Source of the DNA: Bacillota bacterium | Lineage (GTDB): Bacteria; Bacillota; Clostridia; Peptostreptococcales; Anaerovoracaceae | Assembly: GCA_030526325.1 (NCBI GenBank) | Contig: JAUNCY010000014.1 | Location: forward strand, 1 to 32,498 | Direction: 5' to 3' | DNA length: 32,498 nt | In this document: one piece after another, positions 3,668 through 32,498 of the stretch | Position numbering within the stretch: position 1 is the stretch's first letter | Layout of the letters: each line of letters starts with the position of its first letter | Notes under the pieces: generated by a model | What the model was told of the DNA's origin: nothing | What the model saw: only the letters and a program-made list of their open reading frames with translations | The model's database searches: none | Program-made: the position numbers and the translations under genes

Positions 3668-4132
3668 TTACTCATCATACTGAACGCTCAGCTCCACCTC
3701 GTCAGGCAGTATATCCAGATTTGTTTCGGCTACAGCATAAGGATATGTAATTTCCTGAGTCAGAAGTTCACCGCTTCCGGGGTCGGAAAATTTAGCGTAC
3801 ACAGTCATCCTGTTCAGCCCTTCCGATTCCTCCCAGGTTATTTTTTCTATTGTTACACCGTAACCTGAAGTGGTTTTTTCTCCTCTTGCAGCCACAACAT
3901 AAACTTTTCCGTCAATGATGCATGCAAGCGCTCTCTCCAGCAGCTGATACTCGGGCATGATCTCCTCGGACAGCTGCTTCGGTATATCTTCAGAGGAAAG
4001 CAGTGTAAACTCCACAGAACTGTCTCCTTTAAGCTTTGAGCATCCCACTACAGCTCCGGCAATAACCAGAATCAGCAGAAGCCCTCCTATTACAGCCTTC
4101 TTTCCTATCCCTCCGGCAGAACCTCTTTTCAA
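3668..4132 (-). CDS. Small predicted lipoprotein of unknown function
   Basis: I do not recognise the family. The longest frame opens at a GTG (4150), but that GTG and the following GGAGGAGGG are clearly the ribosome site. The in-frame TTG at 4132, about 6 bases beyond it, is the better start. It gives 154 residues with a textbook lipoprotein leader: a basic MKRGSAGGIGKK, a hydrophobic stretch, and a Cys in VVGCS as the probable lipidation site. The mature part is about 120 residues, predicted beta-rich with several acidic stretches and no recognisable catalytic motif. It is the last gene of the csaB-transketolase run, 77 bases after tktC, and its ribosome site is locked in a hairpin (4140-4187). 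Confidence 0.7.
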   Translation of the reverse strand: MKRGSAGGIGKKAVIGGLLLILVIAGAVVGCSKLKGDSSVEFTLLSSEDIPKQLSEEIMPEYQLLERALACIIDGKVYVVAARGEKTTSGYGVTIEKITWEESEGLNRMTVYAKFSDPGSGELLTQEITYPYAVAETNLDILPDEVELSVQYDE

Positions 4133-4139
4133 AATAATT

Positions 4140-4187
4140 CCCTCCTCCACAGTTTGTAATGACTACTACATAATCTATGAAGGAGGG
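4140..4187 (-). promoter_or_regulatory. Hairpin that sequesters the lipoprotein ribosome site; possible attenuator
   Basis: In the minus-strand transcript the 13 bases at 4187-4175 (CCCUCCUUCAUAG) can pair with 4152-4140 (CUGUGGAGGAGGG), with 11 Watson-Crick pairs and two G-U pairs. The loop is 22 bases and can itself form UGUA/UACA. The 3' arm contains the whole AGGAGG ribosome site of the TTG start at 4132. The following bases AAUUAUUUU also resemble a weak terminator tail. It could therefore act as a translational lock, an attenuator, or simply the terminator of the upstream operon. Confidence 0.65.
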
Positions 4188-4208
4188 CATTTATTTATGA
4201 CTCAAATA

Positions 4209-5138
4209 TCAGATAAGCTCTCTGCAGGCTTTCACAATGTCTGCCGCAGTTATCTCATACTCTTCCATGAGCTGAGCAGGCTTTCCTGACTGACCGAACC
4301 GGTCTTTTATACCTATCATTCTGAGCTTTGCAGGGCATTCAACGGAAATCACCTCTGCAACAGCGCTTCCCAGTCCGCCGATAATACTGTGTTCTTCTGC
4401 GGTTACAATTCCCCCGGTTTCCTTTGCCGCTTTTACAATTATATCTTTATCAATAGGCTTGATTGTATGAATATCCAGTACTCTTACGGATACTCCCTCT
4501 TTCGCCAGCTGTTCCGCAGCAATCAGGGCCTCGTTTACCATAATTCCAGTAGCCGCAACTGTCACGTCGCTGCCTTCTTTTACAGTTATTCCTTTGCCGA
4601 TCTGAAAATCCATATTTTCATCATAAATGACAGGAACGGCAGCTCTTCCCAGTCTTACATAGCACGGACCTTTCATCTCAACGGCAGCTTCTATTGCCTT
4701 CTTTGCGGAAACTCCGTCCGAAGGATTGAGGACAGTCATTCCCGGAATGCTTCTCATAAGAGAAATATCCTCTATTGCCTGATGGCTTGCTCCGTCCTCA
4801 CCTACTGTAACACCCGCATGAGTTGCACAGATTTTAACGTTGAGTTTCGGATATCCGATGGAATTTCTGATAATTTCAAAAGCTCTTCCTGCAGCAAACA
4901 TGGCAAAAGTGCTGGCAACCACGGTTTTTCCTGCTGAGGCAAGACCAGCAGCCACGCCGTACATGTTCTGCTCAGCTATACCCATATTAAAGAATCTTTC
5001 GGGATAAGCCTTGCTGAAGGATGCTGTCATGGTTGATTTTGATAAATCCGCATCCATTACTATTAAATCTTTGTTCTTTTCACCTATTTCAACCAGAGCT
5101 TCTCCGTAAGCCTGTCTTGTAGCCATTTTATCAGCCAT
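4209..5138 (-). CDS. tkt: Transketolase, C-terminal subunit (pyrimidine-binding and C-terminal domains)
   Basis: Second half of a split transketolase, 309 residues. With the N-terminal subunit it transfers two-carbon ketol units in the non-oxidative pentose phosphate pathway. It carries the TPP pyrimidine-binding domain (EQNMYGVAAGLASAGKTVV, with the conserved Glu in AEQN), the GxTHAG-like region seen here as CATHAGVTVGEDGASHQ, and the C-terminal domain with DIHTIKP. The ATG at 5138 overlaps the stop of the N-terminal gene (TAATG), and GGAGGTG lies just upstream, so the two subunits should be made in equal amounts. Split transketolases are common in anaerobic Firmicutes and archaea. Confidence 0.95.
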   Translation of the reverse strand: MADKMATRQAYGEALVEIGEKNKDLIVMDADLSKSTMTASFSKAYPERFFNMGIAEQNMYGVAAGLASAGKTVVASTFAMFAAGRAFEIIRNSIGYPKLNVKICATHAGVTVGEDGASHQAIEDISLMRSIPGMTVLNPSDGVSAKKAIEAAVEMKGPCYVRLGRAAVPVIYDENMDFQIGKGITVKEGSDVTVAATGIMVNEALIAAEQLAKEGVSVRVLDIHTIKPIDKDIIVKAAKETGGIVTAEEHSIIGGLGSAVAEVISVECPAKLRMIGIKDRFGQSGKPAQLMEEYEITAADIVKACRELI

Positions 5139-6717: not shown

Positions 6718-7822
6718 CCGAACACTCCTCTCCCAGAAGCTTCTTTATAAGAATTTCATTATAATTCAGCTTTTCTATCAGAATCTCCTTGTTTCTTCTG
6801 ACCTTTCCAAGCAGCTTTTCCTTATTTTTCATAACCTTTTCATATTCTTCAATAAGGTATTCACCCTTGAAATCGTACACAGAGCACATAGCTCTCAAAT
6901 CCATAGACTTCATGAAGGAATTCACCTTAGGATCGTATGAAATACCTATCATCGGAACCTCCATAATTGCAGCATGTATCAAAGAATGAAGTCTGACCCC
7001 CACCAGCAGATCCATGTTTCCGATAATGGAAAGCATCTCCCCGGTAAGGCATTTTCTTCTGATGCAGGCAACCTTTTCACCCACTCGCCGCTGAATCTCT
7101 TCCGTAATAGGCATATCCTCGGAAAAATGAAAAGGTATAAGCACTATCCTTGCGTCATATCTGGCTATGAGTTCTTTAATTCCCAGACATACCTCAGACA
7201 GAAAATCTTCATCTTTAATATTCCCTTTTACTGCTATTCCGATAGCGGGTCTGTCCGTATCAAAATCAAAATCTGCTTCTTCGAGAATACGTTTTCCCGT
7301 TTCCAGCCCGGGCTTTCTGATTCTGATAACAGGATCCGCCGTCACCATCAGTTTATCATCCTTCATACCGCATTCCAGAAGAAACTCCCGGGAGCCCTCG
7401 TCCCGAACCACAATATAATCCGCCTTCGACAGCGTATTTATCATGAGCCTCCTGTTAAACGGAGAATTGACAGGGCCTATTCCCTGACTGTATATAAAAA
7501 CCTTCTTGCGGAAAAACATCGCAATCCACATTACGGCAAGATAGTACAGTATGCTTTTCCTGCTTGTCACATCCTGCAGCAGACTTCCTCCTCCGCTTAT
7601 CAGAAGATCCGCCCCTGCAATACTTCTTACAATTTGGGCAATGCTCCGCCGGTCCACAGCCCTTACACCGAATTTGTCCCGGGTAGACTGAGGATTGTTT
7701 GAAAGCACCGTTATTTCGATGTTAGGAATACGATCCTGCAGGTTCTCAACAACCGCCTTTAAAATAGATTCATCTCCGATATTATTGAAACCATAATATC
7801 CGGAAATTACAATCCTATGCAT
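6710..7822 (-). CDS. csaB: CsaB-type polysaccharide pyruvyl transferase
   Basis: Adds a ketal pyruvate to a secondary cell-wall polysaccharide. Such pyruvylated sugars are the anchor for SLH-domain surface proteins and S-layers. The 370-residue protein begins MHRIVISGYYGFNNIGDESI, a characteristic CsaB opening, followed by ADLLISGGGSLLQDVTS, YSQGIGPV, VRDEGS and the C-terminal VGVRLHSLIHAA and GISYDPKV motifs of the family. The ATG overlaps the stop of the DUF5693 gene by 8 bases and the next gene overlaps it in the same way, so all three are co-translated. The organism therefore probably displays SLH proteins, though none is encoded in this window. Confidence 0.95.
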   Translation of the reverse strand: MHRIVISGYYGFNNIGDESILKAVVENLQDRIPNIEITVLSNNPQSTRDKFGVRAVDRRSIAQIVRSIAGADLLISGGGSLLQDVTSRKSILYYLAVMWIAMFFRKKVFIYSQGIGPVNSPFNRRLMINTLSKADYIVVRDEGSREFLLECGMKDDKLMVTADPVIRIRKPGLETGKRILEEADFDFDTDRPAIGIAVKGNIKDEDFLSEVCLGIKELIARYDARIVLIPFHFSEDMPITEEIQRRVGEKVACIRRKCLTGEMLSIIGNMDLLVGVRLHSLIHAAIMEVPMIGISYDPKVNSFMKSMDLRAMCSVYDFKGEYLIEEYEKVMKNKEKLLGKVRRNKEILIEKLNYNEILIKKLLGEECSDE

Positions 7823-9980
7823 TATTACGGCTACCTCTCTTTCTGTATATCCTGTAAAACCCTTCGAGAATAAGGATGTACATTATGCCGAGCACTATTC
7901 CGAATACTGCCGCATATCCGGTTCTGGCAAATCCCAGCTCCATAGGAGTTCTGATATGCATAAAAGTATTTGTGACAGATGTAAATCCTATAACTCCGGC
8001 AAGCCCGAACAGGAAGGAGAAAATCTTCATATTTCGCACCATGCTGTATATAAACAGCATTACAGCCGGAAAGGCAACAAGGAATTCCTTGGTTCTCGGC
8101 CTTGCGTAGAGCACTTCCTCCAGATAATTTCTTACCAGAAGTTCCAGGGATGAAGCCTCTATTCCGCTCTCATGACCGGTTCTTGCGAGATAAATAAATC
8201 CAGCAGCCCCCACAACCATGGCAAGCAGCACCATCCACATTTTAATATTGTAATTTAACGCCCATTTTATGTCTGTTATCTCAAGAGTGTTTTTCTCTTT
8301 ATCTCCCCACATCTTCAGTGCAGCAAGCATAAACAGCAGCATGAAAAAGGCGAGAGGCAGCAGCTGAGCCAGTTTTACTCCTCTGAATATATCCAGCTCA
8401 AGCATGTAGTCAATACTCGAAACAGGCGCCGCTGTCATAACAGCTCCCGCAGCAGAAATTACTACACAGCCCAGCAGGACCGCGGCTCCCAGTACAGCCA
8501 GTTTTACGACTCCGGCTTCGCTGTCCAACCTTGACTTTATTTCACCTGCGGCATACATCATCAGCACCGTTGTCATGCACGGAATCATAACAGAAGCCGC
8601 AAAGGATGTCAGCAGTGCCGAGAAACCCGGAGCAATGTAATATGCCCCCAGAACCCCGAGAATACCTGCAGCCAGAAGTAAATATATACATCTGTTTCTT
8701 ACCGGAAGTACAGTTTTAAGGCAGAACAGAGCTGCACAGCCTGCACCTATAGCAATGATTATTCCCGCCCAGAGCGGAACCTTGTACGGTTCAAAGGTCG
8801 AAGCCTCACCAATAACTATCCCGTGAGACGCAAGTCTGGCTTCAAGATTCTTAAAGGAATCCCTGTAATCCTGAATATCTGTAATATATGTGTATTCGTC
8901 ATCGGTTTCCTTCATAGGTTTATAGTATATTACCTTTACGTTTCTTTCTACCACAGCCCTGAAAAGGGAATTCTCAATCTCCTCATAGCTTTCATATCCA
9001 TAGTATCCGTATCTGTATTGGATATAAGGCCATACGGAAAATACTCTTACAACATCATAGTCGGTTCCTGTAATTACATCTTCCATTCCGTCAGGAGAAA
9101 TATTCTGTCTCTGTGTGGTATTTTCAACTATTCCTATTGTTATATCATTTTTATTGAGATAGTCCGTAAGCTTTTCCGTTCCGTCGTCATAACCCGGAAC
9201 AGCACGGCTTCCCATTATCCAGTAGTCCGGCACCACATTCATATTTTCGTATGAGGATGTAACATCATTCAGGAAGCGATTATCATTCCAGCCTGCGTAA
9301 CCCAGAGTTCTCGGCTCTACTCTGCAGCCCGCCTTTTGAATAGTATCCACCTTTTCCGGAAGAAGCCCGATATTCAGATACATTATTACCGAGCCTGCCA
9401 TATCCGTTTCCTGAGAGAATCCCGTATCTTCAGTCATCAGGATTTTTTCGGTCTCATAATACAGAGAATCCTCAACTCTGCCGTCGATTAAAATATATCC
9501 TCCGTTTTCCGTTTCCAGAGACACTGACCTCTCAGGATCGTATCTTTCTTCAAAAGCACGGTTTACAAAATCGTACATTTCTTTAGAGCCTGCGATAACC
9601 AGCACATCAAAATCGTCTTTAACGTTTTCATCAATAAGGGCCAGCACCTCCGGAGAAGCCTGATTCATCCAGTATGTGTCCTTTCTTAAATCCTTGACCA
9701 GCTCCGCCTTTACCGGCAGTTCGGATTCCGTAAGAGATTTCAGTGTTTCCTCATGAAGCCCCACCTTGGTAATGCCCATGTCCGCAAATTCACTAAGCCA
9801 CCAGGACACATCATTTTCCGATTGCTGGGACAACAGTTCCATCTCCTTGTAATCCACAACGATATCCACAGATTTTGCATTGTTTTCCACAGAAATCCTT
9901 TGACCTGCCACAATTCCCGATACTATTACTGCCGCAATTAAAATCAGTGCCAGTATCCTGTTTTCTTTAATTAATCTCAT
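7815..9980 (-). CDS. DUF5693-family multipass membrane protein
   Basis: 721 residues of unknown biochemical function. A membrane segment at about residues 9-27 is followed by a soluble extracytoplasmic part to about residue 400, and then by roughly nine to ten membrane helices. Proteins of this type are commonly found directly upstream of csaB in Firmicutes, so a role in making or exporting the pyruvylated wall polymer is inferred. No catalytic motif is evident. It is first in the run DUF5693-csaB-wecG/tagA-tkt. A perfect TTGACA lies at 10051-10046 on the minus strand, 66 bases before the start, but the only -10 I can pair with it (AAAAAT, 19 bases away) is weak. Confidence 0.88.
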   Translation of the reverse strand: MRLIKENRILALILIAAVIVSGIVAGQRISVENNAKSVDIVVDYKEMELLSQQSENDVSWWLSEFADMGITKVGLHEETLKSLTESELPVKAELVKDLRKDTYWMNQASPEVLALIDENVKDDFDVLVIAGSKEMYDFVNRAFEERYDPERSVSLETENGGYILIDGRVEDSLYYETEKILMTEDTGFSQETDMAGSVIMYLNIGLLPEKVDTIQKAGCRVEPRTLGYAGWNDNRFLNDVTSSYENMNVVPDYWIMGSRAVPGYDDGTEKLTDYLNKNDITIGIVENTTQRQNISPDGMEDVITGTDYDVVRVFSVWPYIQYRYGYYGYESYEEIENSLFRAVVERNVKVIYYKPMKETDDEYTYITDIQDYRDSFKNLEARLASHGIVIGEASTFEPYKVPLWAGIIIAIGAGCAALFCLKTVLPVRNRCIYLLLAAGILGVLGAYYIAPGFSALLTSFAASVMIPCMTTVLMMYAAGEIKSRLDSEAGVVKLAVLGAAVLLGCVVISAAGAVMTAAPVSSIDYMLELDIFRGVKLAQLLPLAFFMLLFMLAALKMWGDKEKNTLEITDIKWALNYNIKMWMVLLAMVVGAAGFIYLARTGHESGIEASSLELLVRNYLEEVLYARPRTKEFLVAFPAVMLFIYSMVRNMKIFSFLFGLAGVIGFTSVTNTFMHIRTPMELGFARTGYAAVFGIVLGIMYILILEGFYRIYRKRGSRNNA

Positions 9981-10573: not shown

Positions 10574-10921
10574 TTATCCTCCCATACCCAGACTGACGGT
10601 AAGAGCATCGCGAACCCTTCCAATGGCAGGCTCGTCGATATGGCCTATTTTTTCCTTCAGTCTCATCTTGTCGATAGTTCTGAGCTGTTCCATGAGAACA
10701 ACAGAATTTCTGGAAAGCCCGTTGCCCAGCATTCCTATTTCGACATGGGTCGGAAGCTTGTTTTTATTGACCTGAGAAGTTATTGCCGCAACTATTACCG
10801 TGGGACTGTATTTGTTCCCCACATCGTTCTGAATAACCAGCACAGGTCTAAGACCTCCCTGCTCAGAGCCCACAACCGGGCTCAAGTCCGCAAAGAAAAT
10901 ATCTCCTCTTTTTATAATCAA
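10574..10921 (-). CDS. mazF: EndoA/MazF-family mRNA interferase (type II toxin), no adjacent antitoxin
   Basis: Sequence-specific endoribonuclease of the MazF/PemK family, closest in pattern to Bacillus subtilis NdoA. Seen here: [64 protein letters not shown]; the conserved Arg of the GGLRP loop and the Thr of the AITSQ strand are catalytic in the family. The longest frame starts at a GTG only two bases after GGAGA. The TTG at 10921, spaced properly from that site, gives [10 protein letters not shown], matching the NdoA N-terminus, and 115 residues. Usually alr and a ribbon-helix-helix antitoxin precede it. Here the preceding gene is nnr and the 75-base gap encodes no antitoxin. Confidence 0.93.
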
Positions 10922-10996
10922 GTCACTCACTCTCCGTTGTTTTAAATATTACGGCACAATGAGACATCCCGATTCGTTAATTATTAGTATATATCT

Positions 10997-32422: not shown

Positions 32423-32498
32423 TGGTGCGCGCAGAGGGACTTGAACCCCCACGGTCGCCCGCTAGATCCTAAGTCTAGTGCGTCTGCCAATTCCGCCA
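32423..32498 (-). tRNA. tRNA-Leu (anticodon TAG), 5' end cut by the window edge
   Basis: The minus strand begins at T8 of the tRNA: TGGCGGAATTGGCAGACGC is a class II leucine D-arm; the anticodon stem CTAGA/TCTAG encloses the loop CTTAGGA with anticodon TAG. A variable arm, a T-arm GGGGG-TTCAAGT-CCCTC, the acceptor 3' strand TGCGCGC, discriminator A and an encoded CCA (32425-32423) follow. The seven 5' acceptor bases lie outside the window. Confidence 0.97.

Follow-up and report, generated by a model that had tools for sequence, protein, structure and literature searches.

The Shine-Dalgarno sequence (SD) of a PrcB_C-domain gene in the window, by which we mean the whole 32,498-nucleotide stretch analyzed here, lies within a predicted hairpin whose 5' arm falls mostly between the two boxes of a putative sigma-E-type promoter. 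This arrangement is probably best explained as a lock against read-through, built around a sporulation promoter, by which operon RNA is silenced and sporulation RNA escapes. In the minus-strand RNA the two arms (Table 1) form 13 contiguous pairs, which confirms the pairing proposed in an earlier note on this DNA; two of the pairs are G-U, and because of these a simple repeat finder missed the stem. The SD is contained entirely in the 3' arm of the predicted fold, bearing out the accompanying claim that the whole ribosome site is masked, and the TTG start codon (4132-4130) follows 7 nt past it, while the hairpin loop holds an upper stem in which 4173-4165 is paired with 4160-4153. The stretch 4190-4128 folds with a minimum free energy of -25.9 kcal/mol (z -5.3, with none of 200 shuffles equally stable), and folding a longer stretch round the hairpin gives z -3.5; RNA from about 4165 onwards folds with only -7.4 kcal/mol (z +0.7), no better than shuffles. 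The upstream duplex at this SD is the strongest among 249 gene candidates of the window's own genome, in a survey that drew on the window, about 200 kb from further contigs and two additional loci of that genome, in which many candidates are spurious ORFs and which undercounts, as its start picker missed spoIVA even with the spoIVA locus among the sources. A genome-wide copied repeat could be ruled out, a second copy of the hairpin sequence being absent from that genome.

Table 1. Features of the PrcB_C gene, its leader and the preceding gene, in window coordinates.
Feature	Position	Strand	Basis and remarks
PrcB_C-domain (PF14343) membrane-anchored or lipoprotein gene	3668..4132	-	Pfam E 4e-16; TTG start, 154 codons
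Tail AATTATTTT	4131..4139	-	broken U-tract; in many orthologs an unbroken T run, like an intrinsic terminator
3' arm CTGTGGAGGAGGG, including SD GGAGGAGGG at 4148-4140	4140..4152	-	pairing and fold
Upper stem and loop	4153..4173	-	fold
-10 box TCATAGATT, predicted sigma-E-type promoter	4172..4180	-	overlaps the loop-side end of the 5' arm
5' arm CCCTCCTTCATAG	4175..4187	-	mostly within the promoter spacer, complementary to the SD; fold and covariation
-35 box TCATAAA, predicted sigma-E-type promoter	4194..4200	-	two-box score 9.3 at the orthologs' spacing
Transketolase C-terminal subunit (tktC), codirectional upstream gene	4209..5138	-	Pfam; stop codon 21 nt before the 5' arm

The promoter assignment draws on orthologous loci, for which 160 upstream regions were read and 128 non-redundant ones kept, leaving out L043 (mis-cut) and regions that offered less than 140 nt upstream, contained N or duplicated another sequence. 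A two-box motif, GMATANN-N13-[GT][AC]ATANNNT, scores at least 9 in 103 of the 128, against 3.6% of shuffles, with a spacing between the boxes that is almost always identical, and in 101 orthologous regions the 5' arm sits between the two; the boxes agree with what we take to be the sigma-E consensus. The window's -35 box starts with T rather than G, so that a strict G-first promoter pattern fails to match it; the same TCATAAA stands before spoIIID of the same genome at equal spacing from GCATATATT, and the 9-mer of the window's -10 box is also present upstream of spoIIIAA there (L308). Elsewhere in the family the motif reaches at least 8.5 at 17 of 20 spoIIID, 15 of 25 spoIIIAA and 20 of 25 spoIVA loci (a box comparison from which spoIIID L274 and spoIVA L330 are absent), and all three genes are sigma-E-dependent in B. 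subtilis. Judged from the positions of the boxes, transcription is predicted to start at about 4166 +/- 2, in the loop; as the boxes flank the 5' arm, RNA from the gene's own promoter would therefore begin without that arm, and the stem need not open but would simply be left out. A promoter excluding the 5' arm had been named in the earlier note as the case that would speak against its reading, and such a promoter is suggested by the sigma-E-like boxes of the orthologs. No plain sigma-70 promoter is found in the minus-strand leader between 4132 and 4200.

The distribution of the gene ties it to the same sigma factor. Among 61 genomes (the window's own and 60 relatives), a strong PrcB_C ortholog is present in 23, and all 22 genomes with a sigma-E family match above the curated cut-off carry the PrcB_C gene, one further genome, 86% complete, having the gene without a sigma-E match (Fisher 1e-15 for co-occurrence, a P value that ignores shared ancestry). 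SpoIVA is present in 22 of the 61, and we therefore conclude that the PrcB_C gene tracks sporulation. Order-wide, a PrcB_C match was found in 163 of 393 genomes, and 80 named PrcB_C loci were subsequently taken from genome contigs. The earlier label of lipoprotein agrees with a lipobox cysteine in the window protein but not with most orthologs examined, which are without it, and a more fitting description of the product is a membrane-anchored PrcB_C protein linked to sporulation. C. difficile CD2316, sigma-E-dependent according to the accessible part of PMC7438776, is termed a regulator there and was not taken as a PrcB_C gene. A literature search on the PrcB_C gene in sporulation, covering few subscription papers and others in part, found no report of such an element.

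Pairing between arm and SD was evaluated in 101 regions, with scores below 9, Peptostreptococcaceae-type loci and L024 left out. When each 5' arm is joined with its own SD the mean energy is -16.2 kcal/mol, compared with -11.8 kcal/mol when arms are swapped (z -16.5; none of 2000 permutations comes near), and after thinning to 60 dissimilar regions the corresponding values are -14.6 and -10.7 kcal/mol, a level that not one of 5000 permutations reaches for own pairs; 17 of the 101 have hardly any arm or none (z of at least -1.5). RNAalifold found no consensus pair in an alignment of 60 upstream regions (A2), because subgroups differ by 1-3 nt in helix register, and for the same reason pairing was tested per sequence and on a single-register alignment (A3), made up of 33 rows of the 60 that were selected by eye as sharing one register. 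In A3 both sides change in 8 of the 13 pairs, and none of 500 shuffles equals the real alignment in any of five measures; over all 60 rows of A2 there are 57 both-side cells where 24.1 are expected. The stem thus does covary across relatives, by per-sequence swaps as well as in both alignments, as the check put forward with the original observation had asked.

We infer from these data a model of sigma-E use, start point and in vivo silencing or termination, where RNA of the vegetative transketolase operon would carry both arms, form the 13-bp stem and block translation from the TTG, and where a U-tract, if present after the stem, would also end many read-through transcripts. In the sporulating mother cell, sigma-E RNA polymerase would start within the hairpin, since the -35 and -10 boxes flank the 5' arm, and the loop-started RNA, devoid of the 5' arm, would leave the SD free and the gene translated. 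With read-through RNA masked and own-promoter RNA lacking the 5' arm, the gene should thus stay silent until spores form.

The PrcB_C gene comes after tktN and tktC, all codirectional, and among ortholog loci tktC is codirectionally upstream in 91 of 128 and within 350 nt in 82. Further along the window, a gene for a DUF5693 membrane protein (7815-9980) stands first in the cluster that also contains csaB, a WecG/TagA glycosyltransferase and the split transketolase, and a PemK/MazF-type toxin gene (10574-10930) lies just upstream of a small secreted protein without Pfam match. Stem strength depends on genomic context: mean pairing is -19.7 kcal/mol in the 44 of 101 regions where a codirectional gene ends no more than 110 nt from the start and -13.5 kcal/mol in the remaining 57 (P 1.5e-6, a value that ignores shared ancestry, with lineage, context and stem strength confounded), and the stronger the stem, the more T its tail contains (rho -0.65). 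Where a separate terminator-like hairpin is found close upstream, in 28 of the 101, stems are weaker (-13.2 vs. -17.3) and tails have fewer T. All 16 loci of Peptostreptococcaceae type, as we infer the family name to be, have a CATATAATT or CATATATTT box 25-38 nt upstream of the start, and the arm is mostly absent (median z 0.15; z below -2.5 in 2 of 16).

As the strongest masking is found behind a close codirectional gene and U-tracts are frequent, the element also looks like a terminator. The 9-nt tail contains at least five T in 44 of 69 strong-stem regions, four in 9 and at most three in 16, and going by sequence most strong stems resemble terminators in which the following gene has its SD on the 3' arm, while a minority would mask the SD without a U-tract; L018 and L163 have a strong stem with at most three tail T plus a separate terminator-like hairpin just upstream. 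For the window itself, the suggestion that the tail would also allow termination keeps a possible link to this pattern, but the tail there is only a broken U-tract that a terminator scan of the window did not flag, and since it is broken, termination at this site may be weak. These observations bear on the alternative that the hairpin is only an intrinsic terminator of the transketolase operon, the downstream gene reusing the G-rich 3' arm as its SD and the masking having no function of its own. We consider this unlikely: the 44 T-rich tails, the rise of T content with stem strength and the closeness of tktC are what it would lead one to expect, but it leaves aside the 16 T-poor tails (some with a separate upstream terminator-like hairpin) and the broken tail of the window, and a separate terminator would do without covering the SD.

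Translational coupling, whereby ribosomes ending on transketolase would open the stem and the gene would be made from operon RNA during growth, appears highly improbable, as a terminating ribosome is not expected to get to the base of the stem even where, as in the window, the stop codon lies 21 nt ahead of the 5' arm, and the position of the gene directly after tktC in most loci has to be set against its tracking of sigma-E, the conserved promoter motif inside the element and the U-tracts of many regions, at which the RNA would end. At nearly -26 kcal/mol, the stem is far more stable than RNA thermometers usually are. Hardly any credence is left for the conditional switch on operon RNA that the earlier note had in mind (a thermometer, or ligand or protein binding), for which the SD masking as such could be cited and some factor could open a 13-bp stem, but for which an Rfam scan of the window returned only a tRNA (32426-32498) and no match above the gathering score in the hairpin region, the loop sequence is not conserved except for the promoter box, and no opener would be needed with the promoter placed in the spacer. 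Of that reading, masking of the SD, covariation and a possible link with termination hold, and opening of the stem by temperature, ligand or protein is unsupported.

A predicted sporulation promoter nested in an SD-masking stem is not confined to the PrcB_C gene. The architecture is the same at spoIVA of the window's own genome (L203, C52:5215-5275, minus), which features GAATAAA, a spacer arm AACCTCCC, TAATATAAT and the SD GGGGGAGG, then TTTTGTT and TTG. Promoter and pairing cut-offs are both passed by 9 of 25 spoIVA, 2 of 25 spoIIIAA and 2 of 20 spoIIID loci, and when the three genes are pooled, pairing is strong at 9 of the 20 loci behind a codirectional gene that ends no more than 130 nt away and at 8 of the 49 others (Fisher P 0.028; L274, L290 and L330 left out). 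A narrow arm pattern gave 78 matches in the window's own genome (G000) versus 46 in a reversed control, and among the sites read there only the window gene and spoIVA stood up. An SD plus five T, tried as the sole signature, proved unspecific, with 21 genes in the sporulating G232 and 15 in the non-sporulating G013 among the sites fetched; a strong arm is present at 5 and 1 of these, respectively, and such strong-arm sites include transposase-like, permease-like and folT-like genes and spoIIR. Strong SD-masking stems were also observed at L427 and L400 (both in G232) and at L367 (own genome), where the genes that follow are transposase-like, permease-like and folT, and our guess is that those at the permease-like gene and folT may be riboswitch platforms.

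A covariance model built from A3 (R1) and searched in 12 genomes returned 69 places at E no greater than 1, a few of them being opposite-strand matches of the same site, with one weak match apiece in two genomes without sigma-E or SpoIVA. In the window's own genome, where 150 of 1258 candidates were scored, the window's site is not among the 3 matches, which we put down to its shifted register and to this partial scoring. Twenty-two R1 loci were read, with 8 ortholog sites set aside, and the 10 downstream proteins scanned comprise three SpoIIR, one SpoIIGA, two GerA-type proteins, one YunB, one M23 peptidase, one UppP and one FolT. In some of the elements at spoIIR and gerA-type genes, GTATA or GAATA is followed after 15 nt by a GGNNANNNT-like box, a combination that we take to resemble sigma-F promoters; spoIIR of three relatives (L353, L359, L360) combines an SD-masking stem with a U-tract, the sigma-F-like boxes flanking the arm at L353 and L360, and at spoIIGA (L362) a long stem masks the SD, with a TATAAT box in the loop. 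The spoIIR leader of G232 is present as an inverted duplication (C1:158882-158948 minus and 165973-166039 plus; L351, L360), one copy of which opens into only 14 codons and is apparently broken. Near 6565 of L219 (own genome, C61), a strong GC-rich hairpin lies beside the SD of a protein start that we take to be SigG-like, about 3 kb from sigE and on the opposite strand.

The chances seem to us evenly balanced that these cases reflect a general sporulation grammar of the family, in which genes behind vegetative genes carry a stem with its 5' arm as promoter spacer and its 3' arm as SD followed by a U-tract, so that a segment of about 60 bp would be terminator, promoter and ribosome site at once, used with sigma-E (spoIVA, spoIIIAA, spoIIID, yunB), sigma-F-like boxes (spoIIR, gerA-type) or a TATAAT box (spoIIGA), and gained or lost as neighbors change. 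Sporulation genes can be harmful when mistimed, yet many lie directly behind growth genes, and a compact element that silences incoming RNA at the levels of termination and translation, yet encloses a promoter whose RNA escapes, would, if real, account for the packing of such genes into operons. The element further provides a sequence signature for finding uncharacterized sporulation genes, the PrcB_C gene being one, and a testable link between gene neighborhood and the evolution of the lock; if true, it would extend the logic of T4 late genes to a recurring bacterial developmental program.

Among known systems, intrinsic terminators share with many PrcB_C orthologs a G+C-rich stem followed by T, but in the present element the 3' arm serves as SD for the gene that follows, whose predicted promoter is enclosed by the stem. 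In IS10/IS50-type transposase protection, incoming RNA masks the transposase ribosome-binding site; these are mobile elements, however, and have no sporulation promoter. A literature search that took in few subscription papers, and some sources in part, found no report of a sporulation promoter nested in a terminator or ribosome-site hairpin. For B. subtilis sigG, the accessible part of PMC5942855 proposes a large hairpin that stops translation of spoIIG read-through RNA and cannot form in RNA from sigG's own promoter, and does not describe a terminator role or cross-species covariation for it; the PrcB_C element differs in gene and in sigma class, and its arm lies within the promoter spacer in about 100 regions. 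For the T4 genes e (lysozyme), soc, 49 and I-TevI, longer early RNA hides the SD in a helix; late promoters are located within its 5' strand or close to it, and the late RNA, which is without that strand, is translated, as the accessible part of PMC3014915 has it. The likeness to gene e lies in an SD that would be masked by a helix in the longer RNA and in a codirectional upstream gene able to feed RNA in (tktC, at the 91 loci given above). It may extend to the promoter, whose boxes in the window and 101 orthologous regions are placed such that own-promoter RNA would be without the 5' arm. The T4 cases are phage late genes read with the late sigma gp55, whereas the present gene lies on a chromosome, is linked to sporulation and has boxes of sigma-E type, often together with a terminator U-tract. 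Overall, the best reading is that the logic of a read-through lock, known from T4 gene e and sigG, is found here as a conserved, recurring sporulation element.
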